43,401 nt of DNA from the NCBI GenBank assembly GCA_021777475.1, contig JAJYDM010000009.1, forward strand, positions 1 through 43,401, read 5' to 3'. Position 1 is the stretch's first letter; each line of letters opens with the position of its first letter. This document shows positions 38,270 to 43,401 of the stretch, in pieces. Below the pieces are notes generated by a model. The model was not told the origin of the DNA. It did no database searches and was given only the letters and a program-made list of their open reading frames with translations. The stretch comes from Actinomycetes bacterium (GTDB lineage: Bacteria; Actinomycetota; Acidimicrobiia; Acidimicrobiales; Acidimicrobiaceae). Both the position numbers and the translations under genes were made by a program.

Positions 38270-39112
38270 TTACGTGTTCTGATGGTTTTTCAATAGGGGA
38301 ACGAGGTACTTGTCCCTTATGATGGTCTGAAGGACCGCACGCAGGTACAGGAGCCCGTACTTCCAGTTGGCCGCCTTTTTAGATACTCCCGCGGTACGAA
38401 CCGACATTGTCACAGGATGTTCATATAATCTCGCTCCGCTGCAGATGGCGGAGATCAATATTTCCGAGGATTGATACTGTCTTTGGTGCAGTCTGACTTT
38501 TTCCAGCACCTCGCAGTTGTAAGCCCGGTAGCCAGACGAGGTGTCTCCTACGGGCGTATGGGTGGCTAATGAAATGAGGCGTGTGAAAAACTCCACTCCG
38601 AGATTGCGGAAGCGGTCCTGAACGTCTGTAGTACCCAGACGTCTCGACCCTTGGGTAAAATCCGCATCTCCCTTTACAAGCGGTGTTATCATCTCGTTAA
38701 GGTCGCTTGGATCCCATTGACCATCAGCATCCACGACGGCAACAAATCGGGTTTTGTTCTGGAGGGCAAACAGGTATCCGGTCTTCAATGCGGCGCCCTG
38801 ACCGGAGTTATGAGGCATGTCAAGGACCAGCGCACCCGCAGCTTCTGCGATTGATGATGTGTTGTCGGTGGATCCGTCATTGATCACCAGAACTTGGGTC
38901 TTCAATCCACAAGCGATTGTTGGTATTCTCAATATGACGTCTTTGATCGAGCCTTCTTCATTGAAGGCCGGAATTAATACAAGTATCGCGTTCGGAGGAA
39001 CTTCAAACTTATCCACGGAGATTTTTCGAAATGATTCGGAGAGATCTTTGGGCAGTCCTTTTTCGAGAAGCTCCTTATTCGTAGGAGTGATATTGAAAAT
39101 TTTCTCGAGCAC
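38270..39112 (-). CDS. GT2 glycosyltransferase, polyprenyl-phosphate-sugar synthase type
   Basis: 280 residues. GT-A fold: ILVLIPAFNEEGSIKDVILR, VLVINDGSTDNTSSIAE, NSGQGAALKTGYLFAL, DADGQWDPSDL (metal DxD), QGSRRLGTTDVQDRFRN, DTSSGYRAYN. This is the DPM1/GtrB pattern, which loads a sugar from a nucleotide onto a polyprenyl phosphate. No C-terminal membrane helices are present. Its product would feed the adjoining YfhO protein, with a GtrA-type flippase at 33176. GTG start at 39112. Confidence 0.93.
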   Translation of the reverse strand: MLEKIFNITPTNKELLEKGLPKDLSESFRKISVDKFEVPPNAILVLIPAFNEEGSIKDVILRIPTIACGLKTQVLVINDGSTDNTSSIAEAAGALVLDMPHNSGQGAALKTGYLFALQNKTRFVAVVDADGQWDPSDLNEMITPLVKGDADFTQGSRRLGTTDVQDRFRNLGVEFFTRLISLATHTPVGDTSSGYRAYNCEVLEKVRLHQRQYQSSEILISAICSGARLYEHPVTMSVRTAGVSKKAANWKYGLLYLRAVLQTIIRDKYLVPLLKNHQNT

Positions 39113-39256
39113 AATTTAAATAGGCTAACCATTCAGCAAATTGATTGCCACACAAAACACCGACCGGTGTATTGCCAGCTAGTTGGCTTCTTTTTGATTT
39201 CTGGTACGAAATGTTTCATTTGGTTCTTGACATGGCTGAACTACGGTGGTGAAATT

Positions 39257-39272
39257 ACACAGGATGTTGTGT
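39257..39272 (+). promoter_or_regulatory. NrdR box 1
   Basis: ACACAGGATGTTGTGT agrees with the NrdR consensus acaCwATATaTwGtgt at 13 of 16 positions, with both outer half-sites complete. NrdR represses ribonucleotide reductase genes when dATP/ATP status is high. Its distance to box 2 (31 bp) is the usual spacing of three helical turns. Confidence 0.8.
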
Positions 39273-39287
39273 TCAGTGAGACGTGAC

Positions 39288-39303
39288 AATCAATATATTG
39301 TGT
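39288..39303 (+). promoter_or_regulatory. NrdR box 2
   Basis: AATCAATATATTGTGT contains the full core CwATATaTwGtgt. The central CAATATATTG is a perfect palindrome. It overlaps the -35-like TTGTGT of a candidate nrdJ promoter (TATAGC at 39320-39325), a sensible place for repression. Confidence 0.82.
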
Positions 39304-39502
39304 TTTTACGAGACATTGTTATAGCCAAGGTGTAATATCGCCTGGAAGAAAAGATCGGCGGATTCAGAGACTCACGCAGGGCACGGCTGAGAAAAGAAAA
39401 TCATGATTGCGTTGATGACCCAGGCCCTGGTTGTTCGAGAAAGTTCTTATTCAGCTTAAGTTGATGATCTGTCTCATCAGATGGATTGGGAAAGGTAGTG
39501 TA

Positions 39503-42292
39503 ATGGCAATAGCTCCTCAGAGATCAGGAATTGGGCTCAGGCGTTTTTTTACCTCACAGGGGGTCGATCCTTACGACACCGTGAATTGGGAGCGTCGTGA
39601 TTCTCGAATAACCAATTACCAGGATGGCTCAGTCGCGTTTGAACAGCTCCAGGTTGAGGTACCGTCGACGTGGAGCGTAAATGCGACCAATATTCTCGCC
39701 CAGAAGTACTTTCGCGGAACTTTGGGCACTCCAGAGCGGGAGTGGTCACTGAAGCAGGTGGTTGACCGTGTAATAGATACAATCACCGATTGGGGAAAAA
39801 AAGACGGATATTTTGCCGACGACGACGAGGCGGAAATCTTTTCGAATGAACTCAAGTACGCGATCATCCATCAGCATGCAGCCTTTAATTCACCTGTATG
39901 GTTCAATATTGGTGTGAAAGGGGTTCCTCAACAGGCCAGTGCCTGTTTTATTCTTGCTGTTGACGATGACATGAACTCCATCTTGAACTGGTACGTAGAG
40001 GAAGGCACCATCTTCAAGGGTGGTTCTGGATCCGGAATCAATCTTTCCAAGATTCGTTCATCTCAGGAACTTCTTAAGGGCGGTGGTACTGCGTCCGGGC
40101 CAGTCAGTTTCATGAGAGGTGCTGATGCTTCGGCTGGGACTATAAAGTCAGGTGGAAAGACCAGACGTGCGGCCAAAATGGTTATTTTGAATGCGGACCA
40201 TCCTGATATTGAAGAATTTATTTGGTGCAAGACCATCGAGGAGCGTAAGGCCCGTGCTCTTAGGGACGCCGGCTTTGACATGAGCTTGGATGGCCGGGAC
40301 AGCTTTTCCATTCAATATCAGAACGCTAATAATTCAGTTAGGGTTACAGACGAGTTTATGGAGGCGGTGGTTGACGACGGGGACTGGGAACTAAAGGCTG
40401 TAACTGACGGTTCTGTTATCAAGACACTGAAGGCTCGTGAACTCATGAGGCAGATATCGGAGGCAGCGTGGGATTGCGCTGACCCTGGACTCCAGTACGA
40501 CACTACAATCAACAAATGGCACACTGCACCGAACACGGGCCGAATTAATGGCTCAAACCCGTGTTCAGAGTATGTCCACCTTGATAATTCCGCATGTAAC
40601 CTCGCGAGTCTTAACCTGATTAAATTCCTCAAGCCTGATGACACATTCGACATTGAGGGTTTCAAAGTTACAGTTGAGGTGGTATTCACCGCGCAAGATA
40701 TTTTGGTCGGTAACGCCGATTACCCGACAGAGAAGATCGGTGATACCTCCCGCAAGTTTCGTGAACTCGGGATCGGCTACGCAAATCTTGGAGCGATGCT
40801 TATGGCGCTGGGTCTTCCGTATGACTCAGAGGGTGGCAGGGCTATGGCCGGTGCGGTGACGGCCTTGCTGACTGGAGCCGCCTATGCAACGTCAACGAGA
40901 ATGGCCGCCCGACTCGGTCCCTTTGCGGGTTTCTACGATAACAGAGAACCAATGCTGAGTGTTCTGAAGATGCACCGTGCAGCGGCTGACAAGATTGATC
41001 AGTCTGAAGTAGCGCCCGAACTCATTAGTGCAGCAAAGCAAATATGGGACGAGGCCATAGATGTTGGATCCACCTATGGAGTGAGAAACTCCCAGGCTTC
41101 TGTCCTCGCACCAACCGGGACGATTGGTTTGATGATGGATTGTGATACAACCGGAGTTGAGCCTGATCTTGGTCTTGTAAAGTCAAAGAAGCTGGTTGGC
41201 GGTGGAACCATGGCAATCGTAAATCAGACAGTTCCGCGGGCTCTGGTAAGGCTGGGGTATAGCGAGTCCCAGGTTGCATCGATCGTTGCCTACATAGACA
41301 GGCACAAGAGCATAGTGGGTTCACCGGATCTCGACTCCCGGCACCTTCCAGTGTTTGCCTGTTCCATGGGCGACAACACTATCCATTACAGAGGTCACGT
41401 CAAAATGATGGCAGCCGTTCAACCGTTCATCTCGGGAGCAATTTCAAAAACCGTCAATATGCCTGAAGATGCGACGGTGGAGGAGATCGAGCAACTCTTC
41501 GTTGAGGCTTGGCGACTTGGTGTCAAAGCAGTGGCAATCTATAGAGATAACTGCAAGGTGGCTCAGCCACTGACGACCAAGGGCAAGGCATCTGCCCCGC
41601 TCATTCCCTCCAACTCCAAGTCAGAGTTGACGCATAAGATTGCGGAGCTTGAAGAGGCGCTTCAATCACAGACTGTCATAGTCAAGCGGCCAGTGCGTGA
41701 ACGTCTGCCACGCAGACGTAAGTCTTACACCTTTGCATTTCGTGTTTCTGATTGTGAGGGCTACGTAACTGTTGGTGAATACGAGGACGGTCGGCCCGGA
41801 GAAGTATTCATGAAGGTTTCTAAGCAGGGGTCGACTCTAGCGGGAATTATGGATGCTTTTTCGATATCTGTAAGCCTTGGTCTTCAACATGGGGTGCCGC
41901 TCTCCACCTACGTTAAAAAGTACACAAATATGCGATTCGAGCCCAGCGGAATAACTGATGACCCCGATCTTCGATTTGCCTCATCGCTTGTCGACTACAT
42001 TTTCCGTCGTTTGGCAATTGACTACCTTACAGTGGAAGAGAGGACTGAATTGGGAATCTCGACCACTGAGGAGAGAACACAGCTGACTCTGTTCACGGGT
42101 GATGAAGTTTCAGGTGACTATGTGCATCTTGATTCGCAATCTAAGGTGCCTTCACAGTCTGCAGAGGCCGACCTGATTCAAGGGACAATCTCGAAAGACG
42201 CTCCATATTGCTACCAATGTGGCAATCAGATGCAGCGCGCCGGTTCGTGCTATGTATGTCCGTCCTGCGGTACGACAAGCGGCTGTTCGTAG
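39503..42292 (+). CDS. nrdJ: Vitamin B12-dependent (class II) ribonucleoside-diphosphate reductase NrdJ
   Basis: 929 residues. Makes deoxyribonucleotides with adenosylcobalamin, with or without oxygen. Catalytic barrel landmarks: AAFNSPVWFNIGV, ACFILAVDDDMNSIL, IFKGGSGSGINLSKIRS, NGSNPCSEYVHLDNSACNLASLNL, LAPTGTIGLMMDCDTTGVEPDL, IYRDNCKVAQPL. A region of about 170 residues (RRRKSYTFAFRVSDCEGYVTV onward) is the C-terminal extension, ending in CYQCGNQMQRAGSCYVCPSC, whose Cys pairs relay electrons. ATG 39503 has AAAGG upstream; ATG 39431 would add 24 non-family residues. Tandem NrdR boxes upstream, terminator at 42366. nrdR itself is not in the window. Confidence 0.97.
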   Translation: MAIAPQRSGIGLRRFFTSQGVDPYDTVNWERRDSRITNYQDGSVAFEQLQVEVPSTWSVNATNILAQKYFRGTLGTPEREWSLKQVVDRVIDTITDWGKKDGYFADDDEAEIFSNELKYAIIHQHAAFNSPVWFNIGVKGVPQQASACFILAVDDDMNSILNWYVEEGTIFKGGSGSGINLSKIRSSQELLKGGGTASGPVSFMRGADASAGTIKSGGKTRRAAKMVILNADHPDIEEFIWCKTIEERKARALRDAGFDMSLDGRDSFSIQYQNANNSVRVTDEFMEAVVDDGDWELKAVTDGSVIKTLKARELMRQISEAAWDCADPGLQYDTTINKWHTAPNTGRINGSNPCSEYVHLDNSACNLASLNLIKFLKPDDTFDIEGFKVTVEVVFTAQDILVGNADYPTEKIGDTSRKFRELGIGYANLGAMLMALGLPYDSEGGRAMAGAVTALLTGAAYATSTRMAARLGPFAGFYDNREPMLSVLKMHRAAADKIDQSEVAPELISAAKQIWDEAIDVGSTYGVRNSQASVLAPTGTIGLMMDCDTTGVEPDLGLVKSKKLVGGGTMAIVNQTVPRALVRLGYSESQVASIVAYIDRHKSIVGSPDLDSRHLPVFACSMGDNTIHYRGHVKMMAAVQPFISGAISKTVNMPEDATVEEIEQLFVEAWRLGVKAVAIYRDNCKVAQPLTTKGKASAPLIPSNSKSELTHKIAELEEALQSQTVIVKRPVRERLPRRRKSYTFAFRVSDCEGYVTVGEYEDGRPGEVFMKVSKQGSTLAGIMDAFSISVSLGLQHGVPLSTYVKKYTNMRFEPSGITDDPDLRFASSLVDYIFRRLAIDYLTVEERTELGISTTEERTQLTLFTGDEVSGDYVHLDSQSKVPSQSAEADLIQGTISKDAPYCYQCGNQMQRAGSCYVCPSCGTTSGCS

Positions 42293-42295
42293 ACC

Positions 42296-42339
42296 GACAA
42301 TTATAGGATTGGATGCAACATATTCGAAGTGTGCCTAAC
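42296..42339 (+). repeat. 44-bp imperfect direct repeat, copy 1
   Basis: Matches 42611-42654 at 38 of 44 positions without gaps; the central GATGCAACATA and the later TCGAAGTG and GCCTAAC blocks are identical. It begins four bases after the nrdJ stop codon and ends before the nrdJ terminator. Confidence 0.85.
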
Positions 42340-42404: not shown

Positions 42405-43401
42405 GATAGTCATAGGCTGGAATCTCTTTAATTCAATATGTGCCGGATGTGACCAGCTCCCAAAATTGGTCATCCTATCTAGCCCCAATCAGTTAGGAAT
42501 GGCCTCCTATTACTCACCTGGAATGCCTGCATACCTAGACTCAGGTAGAACAACCGGTTGTTCGCGATGAATAGCTTGTACTTCAAATTATGGTCTTTGC
42601 TAGTATTCCCGGCAATTATGAGATTAGATGCAACATAATCGAAGTGCGCCTAACGAAATTTCCGAGAGCCAGAGATCCGGTGGTGATTCTTTGAGTGGAT
42701 ATTGTCTGGTAGGTTCCCTAATACGCCATCCAAATTCACCTTGTAGAGGAATTGGTGTGGCAATTGGAAGGTTAAGTCCCCACCTGTGTTCGACACAAAT
42801 CGCTGTTGATCTGCGGCAGAAACATCTCACTGCCGTGAGTTGATATTGGTGTCGCATGAATTGCGATCGGGGTTGCATCGGTGGAAATCGATACGAAACG
42901 AGGAACTGTTGCAAAAGGACAAAAGGGCATTCAAAGTCTCAACCTCAAGTTGAAGGTTAAGGTATGAACTCGTCGCCGTACCCCTGGTCCCGATAGATCT
43001 ACAACCTGCGTGACGCCATCACTGTTCTTTGGATCTGGCTCCCGTGGTGGAGTAGCGATTTTCACAGACTTGTTTATCAAGGAGATGACTGAATCTTTTA
43101 CCTCCCAATTCCTGATGGGACCAATGTCTTTACCCCCGTGAGGGTATTCGCGATCTGTACGCAGCGCGCGAATTGGCTCACCGGTACTGGTCTGCCGGTG
43201 CGAAAATTGGTGCGTGTTTTGGTTGGGGAGTCCCACGGCGTTCCAACCCTGAATAATCTGCTTTGGGCGATCAGGAGCTATGCCGGAATCTTGTGTTTCT
43301 GACCTTGTCACCTGGTCGAATCGGCAGTTGTTCTGGTGATGCTTGCCGGATCGGCAAAGACTCACGCTGGCGTAATGTCATCGTCAAATATAGTGCGGGT
43401 T
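42405..43401. other. Gene-empty stretch to the right edge
   Basis: About 1 kb after the nrdJ terminator. It holds the second copy of the 44-bp repeat and a hairpin CGGCAG/CTGCCG (42814-42835). A 144-codon frame on the minus strand (42931-43365, GTG) has no family features; it may be a decayed gene or a shadow. No transposase motif was recognised. Confidence 0.5.
42611..42654 (+). repeat. 44-bp imperfect direct repeat, copy 2
   Basis: Second copy, 315 bp after the first. The segment immediately left of it has no resemblance to nrdJ, so the repeat is not part of that gene. Confidence 0.85.

Follow-up and report, generated by a model that had tools for sequence, protein, structure and literature searches.

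What controls nrdJ, the ribonucleotide reductase gene carried by this contig, and which proteins would read the signals in front of it? The window, by which we mean the whole stretch of 43,401 nucleotides analyzed here, contains two sites resembling NrdR boxes directly before nrdJ. It also contains a predicted promoter and an inverted repeat of a different kind that adjoins the first box. We examined each of these elements in turn and compared them with the corresponding regions of related genomes.

nrdJ and the reductase content of the genome

The gene at issue lies toward the end of the window.

39503..42292, + strand: nrdJ, class II (adenosylcobalamin-dependent) ribonucleotide reductase, 929 aa (NF005122, TIGR02504, Pfam)

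Its product scores 1432.8 bits against NF005122 and 578.6 bits against TIGR02504, with the Pfam domains PF02867 (barrel), PF08471 (class II N-terminal), and PF12637 (TSCPD). We favor the ATG at 39503 as the start over the TTG at 39431 of the longest frame, a choice that agrees with relatives. Identity is 72-75% to the nearest named relatives (MAGs titled Acidimicrobiaceae or 'Actinomycetes') and 88-96% to copies from the same genus, and nrdJ was found in 38 of 42 genomes of the family. From the names of these nearest relatives we take the lineage to be Acidimicrobiia. Because the genome encodes one PF02867 protein and has zero matches to PF00268 and PF13597, nrdJ appears to be its sole reductase gene, as judged from an assembly that is 96% complete. 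In an Rfam search of the whole window at gathering scores, RNase P was the single hit, so a cobalamin riboswitch was not detected upstream of nrdJ.

Just 3' of nrdJ lie two copies of a 46-nt direct repeat (42294-42339 and 42609-42654; 87% identical, 315 bp apart), with no third copy of similar likeness in the 0.77 Mb of the genome examined. The contig end that follows (42931-43401) holds no recognized gene, and a 144-codon frame there lacks a Pfam match. Among other nrdJ loci, an intein-like insertion in open frame interrupts the matches of L116 (G038:C174), L122 (G020:C2), and L123 (G001:C1) near residue 355. Assembly G035 carries two nrdJ genes (L113 and L083, 96% and 90% identical to the window copy), both with NrdR boxes; these may reflect a duplication or MAG contamination, which is estimated at 3%.

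Two NrdR boxes precede nrdJ at a three-turn spacing

The preliminary description had pointed to two consensus-like 16-mers before nrdJ whose starts lie 31 bp apart. We confirmed both. Each matches at 14 of 16 positions the sequence ACACWATATVTTGTGT, which we take to be the NrdR consensus and used for box scoring.

39257..39272, + strand: NrdR box 1, ACACAGGATGTTGTGT, 14/16 to consensus; covers the predicted transcription start
39288..39303, + strand: NrdR box 2, AATCAATATATTGTGT, 14/16 to consensus
39273..39287, + strand: inter-box spacer, 15 bp; the box starts are 31 bp apart, equal to three helical turns

Box 1 has GG in place of the consensus AT; in box 2, the left arm reads AATC and not ACAC. 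Published work on other NrdRs describes a tetramer, formed with dATP plus ATP, that requires a pair of boxes separated by whole helical turns (PMC9110341; PMC12051234). In the S. coelicolor structure, the boxes are 31 bp apart and each has a highly conserved C and G separated by 9 bp (PMC9110341). All four of these positions are kept here (C39260, G39269, C39291, and G39300). By reading, box 2 fits the published NrdR box regular expression, C.[AT].A[AT].[AT].G (PMC12051234), and box 1 (CAGGATGTTG) is off at one position. The distance of 31 bp from start to start, with its 15-bp spacer, also fits the integer-turn rule (spacers of 15-16 or 25-26 bp).

How unusual are these sites? They are the only matches with at most three mismatches in the 43,401-nt window, both strands included (4 hits, a number reached by 2 of 100 shuffles). 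They are likewise the only sites with at most two mismatches to ACACWATATVTTGTGT in the assembly of 2,283,183 bases (96% complete). At up to three mismatches, single boxes occur at background across the whole assembly, with 18 forward and 13 reverse matches versus 19 and 13 for a reversed control. When 2.6 Mb of sequence was simulated with a first-order model, it contained zero pairs at a spacing of 30-32 bp in which each box reached at least 12/16. Across 0.77 Mb of the actual genome, window included, there is one other pair (12 and 12 of 16, 30 bp), and it sits within an open frame of 217 codons.

Conservation of the boxes upstream of nrdJ in relatives had been suggested as a test, and they are indeed retained in all seven aligned upstream regions from the genus (from six genomes, the 88-96% nrdJ copies) as well as in most of the class. 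Within the genus, 14 of 16 columns of box 1 and 13 of 16 of box 2 are invariant. The spacer is constant in length with 0 of 15 invariant columns, and the average invariance over the 340 columns of the alignment is 28.5%. The divergent genus copies L114, L116, and L117 do not have the boxes; L114, with 283 nt of upstream sequence, is the sole nrdJ copy found in G036, and L116 and L117 both occur in G038. Among 72 upstreams assigned by us to the putative class of the window, Acidimicrobiia, 52 have a pair above threshold (41 at 30-33 bp and 11 at 40-43 bp) and 20 are without one.

NrdR is encoded at an unlinked locus beside lexA

An nrdR gene missing from the genome had been named as grounds for abandoning NrdR control, and the gene had been noted as not adjacent to nrdJ in the window. 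We located nrdR elsewhere, on contig C65, beside lexA (on the opposite strand) and a LysM-domain gene. It encodes 157 aa and scores 168 bits against TIGR00244, for which the cut-off is 124.65. The zinc ribbon and ATP-cone are recognizable from a PF22811 hit, from the TIGR00244 match over residues 1-144, and from likeness to S. coelicolor NrdR (7p37) over residues 1-149. Of the residues that the structure paper lists as touching DNA (PMC9110341), D15, R17, R26-R29, and R37 are identical in the latter alignment and R12 is replaced by K. A difference from the S. coelicolor protein is the interdomain linker, which is three residues longer here. In this genome (L001) a perfect LexA-type box, CGAACNNNNGTTCG, begins 136 nt upstream of lexA, and similar ones occur in relatives.

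In the 400 bases before nrdR we did not find a box pair and therefore predict no NrdR autoregulation. The gene is present in 39 of 42 family genomes. Among 30 genomes searched for nrdR, G070 (L018) had neither, G045 (L020) had boxes with no nrdR found, and G071 (L029) had nrdR with no boxes found. As detected by these searches, NrdR boxes and nrdR do not invariably co-occur.

In S. coelicolor, nrdR and nrdJ form one unit behind the nrdRJ promoter (PMC9110341), whereas here nrdR is unlinked and the boxes stand directly before nrdJ. The contrast with the Streptomyces gene order that had been drawn for this locus is right, yet it applies to most class loci examined and is not specific to the window. 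Among class loci, nrdR lies in the flank in 4 of the 30 whose upstream sequence extends for 2.5 kb or more (three of them at 2.2-2.9 kb) and in 0 of the 41 with at least 1 kb. Conversely, nrdR lies 50-316 nt before nrdJ in 33 fetched loci, mostly titled Actinomycetia or Saccharibacteria with a few titled 'bacterium'. The best pair before nrdR is spaced at 31-33 bp in 26 of these 33, and 9 of the 26 pass the threshold. Rows L022 and L031 were left out of this flank comparison and of the linker comparison below. In the class loci the boxes stand before nrdJ itself. The operator thus tends to be found at whichever promoter transcribes nrdJ.

The earlier proposal that nrdJ is under NrdR control is supported by two boxes that are correctly spaced, conserved, and unique in the assembly, by an nrdR gene that keeps most of the DNA-contact residues, and by the lack of a second detectable reductase gene. 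We consider it very probable that 39257-39303 is a complete NrdR operator controlling nrdJ, the sole reductase gene detected in the genome.

Box 1 covers the predicted start of transcription

A putative promoter can be read immediately upstream of box 1.

39227..39232, + strand: predicted main promoter, -35 hexamer TTGACA; 6/6 invariant in seven genus sequences
39247..39255, + strand: extended -10-like element TG-G-TGAAAT, from sequence and alignment; hexamer at 39250-39255, 17 bp after TTGACA

The hexamer TGAAAT is nearly invariant in the seven genus sequences, and we infer a transcription start at about 39261-39263, within box 1. A sigma-70 -10 element usually has A at its second position, where TGAAAT has G. 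A sigma-70 consensus scan of 39100-39520, which demands that A, returned zero promoters; the main promoter was read from the genus alignment and not from the scanner.

Similar promoter-like elements occur across a wider set. Of 61 nrdJ upstreams, 30 (27 with exact TTGACA) have a promoter-like pair that matches at least 10 of 12 positions and stops 0-4 nt short of box 1, and in the remaining 31 no such promoter was seen at that position. The 30 comprise 18 with box pairs three turns apart and 12 with pairs four turns apart. Since the promoter keeps its place in both spacing groups, box 1 seems to be anchored at the -10 and start region, and it follows that box 2 lies one turn further away in the four-turn group.

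By homology, NrdR supplied from the unlinked gene beside lexA would sit over the -10 and start when bound here. The S. coelicolor complex kinks its DNA (PMC9110341). NrdR at this operator would do likewise and block RNA polymerase at the -35 and -10 elements (39227-39255), which end two bases before box 1. The dATP/ATP switch and the repression assumed in this scheme are carried over from published work on other bacteria.

Three-turn and four-turn spacing are not separated by the NrdR linker

From 118 nrdJ upstreams we retained 108 that were non-redundant, and in 59 of these the best pair exceeds the 99% quantile of the null. The spacing is 31-32 bp in 42, 41-42 bp in 11, and other in 6. The window pair has the common three-turn spacing, unlike the natural four-turn sites of S. 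pneumoniae with 25-26 bp between boxes (PMC12051234), which the 11 of 59 upstreams at 41-42 bp resemble. On an nrdJ tree of 70 rows built by a quick method, three- and four-turn spacing requires at least three changes, with labels set by hand for the sub-threshold rows L012, L024, L088, L089, and L105 and for L095. Sister rows can differ, as do L002 (31 bp) and L005 (42 bp).

Linker length has been speculated to set the flexibility of spacing (PMC12051234). Measured from zinc ribbon to ATP-cone with our own markers, the linker is 12 residues long in 11 of 11 NrdRs from four-turn loci and likewise in all 17 of the remaining ones, which are three-turn or lack an assigned spacing; it is 9 residues long in loci titled Actinomycetia where measured. 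We rejected linker length as the cause of four-turn spacing because the four-turn NrdRs and the others share a length of 12 residues and the groups do not separate. Linker length alone thus does not fix spacing in this class. All four-turn cases carry the longer form, and a long linker may permit both arrangements. The four-turn spacing seen here is an extension of the streptococcal precedent (PMC12051234).

An inverted repeat adjoining box 1 resembles the McdR site

A third element lies between the -35 hexamer and box 1.

39239..39256, + strand: degenerate inverted repeat AACTACGGTGGTGAAATT; candidate counterpart, by position and orthology, of a McdR/ResR-type operator

The sequence AATnACAnnnnTGTnATT is the experimentally defined site of McdR (Rv1830, ResR), a MerR-family mycobacterial regulator of cell division that binds the promoters of whiB2 and Rv0996/MSMEG_5468 (PMC9040748; PMC10336103). 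The window repeat matches the published AATnACA-N4-TGTnATT at 9 of 12 positions and AATTACA-N4-TGTAATT at 11 of 14. Taken alone, 9 of 12 is weak: of the 43,384 positions scored in the window, 17 reach it. Scores in the seven genus copies are 9-11 of 12.

We also scored the motif across nrdJ promoters. We assembled 57 in which a pair scores 12 or more at a spacing of 30-33 or 40-43 bp, keeping L095 and L103 with hand-set positions and leaving out L033, L037, L042, L078, and L118 by hand. The published motif is reached at 9, 10, 11, and 12 of 12 positions by 51, 39, 27, and 9 of these promoters, which include many close relatives and are not independent. The corresponding frequencies are 5.1%, 0.54%, 0.018%, and 0 in shuffles, and 1, 0, 0, and 0 of 49 for the stretch after box 2. 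The form AATTACA-N4-TGTAATT, derived from the promoter alignment just before box 1, is matched at 11 of 14 or better in 50 of 57 promoters versus 0.28% of shuffles.

At that threshold, the repeat ends 0-2, 9-12, 19-22, 31, 43, or 55 bp before box 1, the last in two promoters. These offsets are suggestive of whole helical turns. In a phase test on eight hand-made offset classes, p was 0.027, 0.004, and 0.005 at periods of 10.0, 10.5, and 11.0; adding a weak ninth class (-55, two promoters) changed these values to 0.13, 0.009, and 0.002.

We considered other proteins that might bind the repeat. LexA was rejected: 67 lexA upstreams, duplicates and some loci from outside the class included, score 7.60 versus a null of 7.65 for AATTACA-N4-TGTAATT. 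The same upstreams are enriched for the LexA motif CGAACNNNNGTTCG, with a mean of 8.76 of 10 versus 6.68 in shuffles. WhiA, which recognizes GACAC (PMC3781837), was set aside on the ground that the third element is a palindrome, and FtsR was set aside on the ground that its published motif differs.

The repeat precedes apparent counterparts of McdR targets

With at most one mismatch, ATTACA-N4-TGTAAT has 104 sites in 35 chosen genomes, the nrdJ sites included, versus 21 for a reversed control. The exact 13-base form is present in 67 of 296 class genomes, versus a control match in 9 genomes. We surveyed the downstream genes for a part of the sites among the matches listed. The largest groups at fetched sites are whiB-like genes (20 loci, some fetched twice, with one gene of the cluster checked by Pfam) and nrdJ (at least 18). 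The repeat also precedes dnaE in at least three genomes, this one included, and sepX/glpR-like genes, that of this genome included; examples are those of G000 and G003 (where the NCBIfam matches fall below curated cut-offs) and their relatives in G034 and G037. ftsK, recG, an RNase T-type exonuclease, a DNA methylase, and recA follow it in one or two genomes each, and many single sites fall within genes or before unrelated genes.

ftsZ was rejected as a target. Its sites (in G000, G034, G037, G025, and G244) lie inside the ftsZ frame at conserved NYxAVI codons, and the palindrome arises there because this stretch of the protein is conserved.

McdR represses whiB2 in mycobacteria, and Rv0996 is presumably a SepX/GlpR protein. 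The whiB and sepX/glpR-like genes found here are apparent counterparts of the McdR targets whiB2 and Rv0996/MSMEG_5468, and it is mainly because of this match that we name McdR as the candidate binder. In this scheme, 39239-39256, abutting box 1 on its upstream side and overlapping the -10, would serve as a McdR/ResR-type operator.

Other loci also carry the repeat. In L280-L292, from small genomes mostly of group f29, whiB is in most cases divergent from a membrane-protein gene with the McdR-type repeat between them; by eye, the membrane protein resembles a succinate dehydrogenase cytochrome subunit. In L296 (1-1898; G130:C85), recA has an ATTACA-N4-TGTAAT repeat upstream and is split by an intein with a LAGLIDADG domain.

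Weighing the alternatives

The right arm of the repeat overlaps the -10, and part of its conservation may be that of the promoter itself. Taken to its conclusion, this would make the repeat a conserved core promoter and nothing else, with TGTAAT as the -10, an extended TG, and an accidental likeness to the McdR motif. Such a view accounts for the right arm serving as the -10 hexamer in TTGACA-type promoters and for the window copy scoring 9/12, like 17 window positions. It also sits well with our search for an mcdR-like gene, which saw none in 0.73 of 2.28 Mb, about a third of the genome, using permissive patterns that lacked a positive control for mcdR. The gene is of MerR type; in C. glutamicum and other Actinobacteria, odhI/garA, ftsR, a PF02577 nuclease gene, and a second MerR gene are clustered (PMC6683498). 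It does not account for the conservation of both arms, nor for other lineages in which the repeat lies 9-43 bp further upstream, off the -10 position. The contrast between 10/12 in 39 of 57 promoters and 0.54% of shuffles, or 0 of 49 after box 2, argues in the same direction, as does the repeat before whiB and sepX/glpR-like genes. We regard a bare core promoter as the strongest competitor, though an unlikely one.

A second alternative accepts the boxes as real and moves their point of action downstream, to another possible promoter.

39310..39338, + strand: possible second promoter; GAGACA at 39310-39315, 17 bp, TAATAT at 39333-39338; GTGTANNAT invariant in seven genus rows

NrdR at box 2 would then exclude RNA polymerase from this promoter, whose -35-like hexamer is separated from box 2 by six bases. 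The invariance of GTGTANNAT in the genus makes the element worth considering. However, the downstream element is known from the genus rows alone, whereas the upstream promoter keeps a fixed geometry relative to box 1 in 30 of the 61 sequences, including 27 with exact TTGACA. We find it rather improbable that the boxes act mainly here. Finally, that the pair is a chance occurrence or a set of unrelated palindromes draws on the background frequency of single boxes at up to three mismatches and is next to impossible given their uniqueness at two mismatches, position, spacing, and conservation footprint, the conservation data contradicting it.

We therefore return to NrdR at the box pair and a cell-division regulator at the repeat. 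By a slight preponderance, we favor the view that in Acidimicrobiia NrdR, which reads dATP, and McdR/ResR act on one nrdJ promoter. The McdR operator would abut box 1 or lie roughly whole turns upstream of it, and McdR would jointly govern whiB, a sepX/glpR-type divisome gene, dnaE, and nrdJ. Our confidence in the NrdR operator does not extend to McdR control of nrdJ, which we infer with considerably less certainty.

Discussion

The NrdR pair is an ordinary new example of a well-studied operator, and in the open papers searched, none paired NrdR with Acidimicrobiia. What the locus adds on this side is a box pair immediately in front of an nrdJ gene that has no nrdR next to it.

The third element beside box 1 is the new part, and its sequence and genomic company point to direct coupling with a cell-division regulator. 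Its likeness to the mycobacterial McdR operator AATnACAnnnnTGTnATT extends to the inverted repeat, the 4-bp gap, the whiB and sepX/glpR-like targets, and a location around the promoter and start site (PMC9040748; PMC10336103). Against that operator, the copy in the window itself is a degenerate one (9/12). nrdJ ranks among the genes most often found behind the repeat here, whereas 'nrd' is absent from the main text of both McdR papers (PMC9040748; PMC10336103). Among the 15 of 106 matches listed in an open-literature search, the two McdR papers contain no reductase term, and we found none that linked McdR/Rv1830 to nrdJ or ribonucleotide reductase.

A connection of this general kind has a precedent. 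In Streptomyces venezuelae, WhiA controls nrdR through GACAC sites and so also joins the cell-division program to reductase supply (PMC3781837). WhiA acts on nrdR, whereas the link proposed here would act directly on nrdJ through a palindrome.

If the repeat is a McdR operator, dNTP supply would be tied directly to a cell-division regulator whose clinical variants have been studied in tuberculosis, and the McdR regulon would reach well beyond mycobacteria. If the two-regulator reading of the nrdJ promoter is true, deoxynucleotide supply and the replicative polymerase would both be tied to cell division in Acidimicrobiia.
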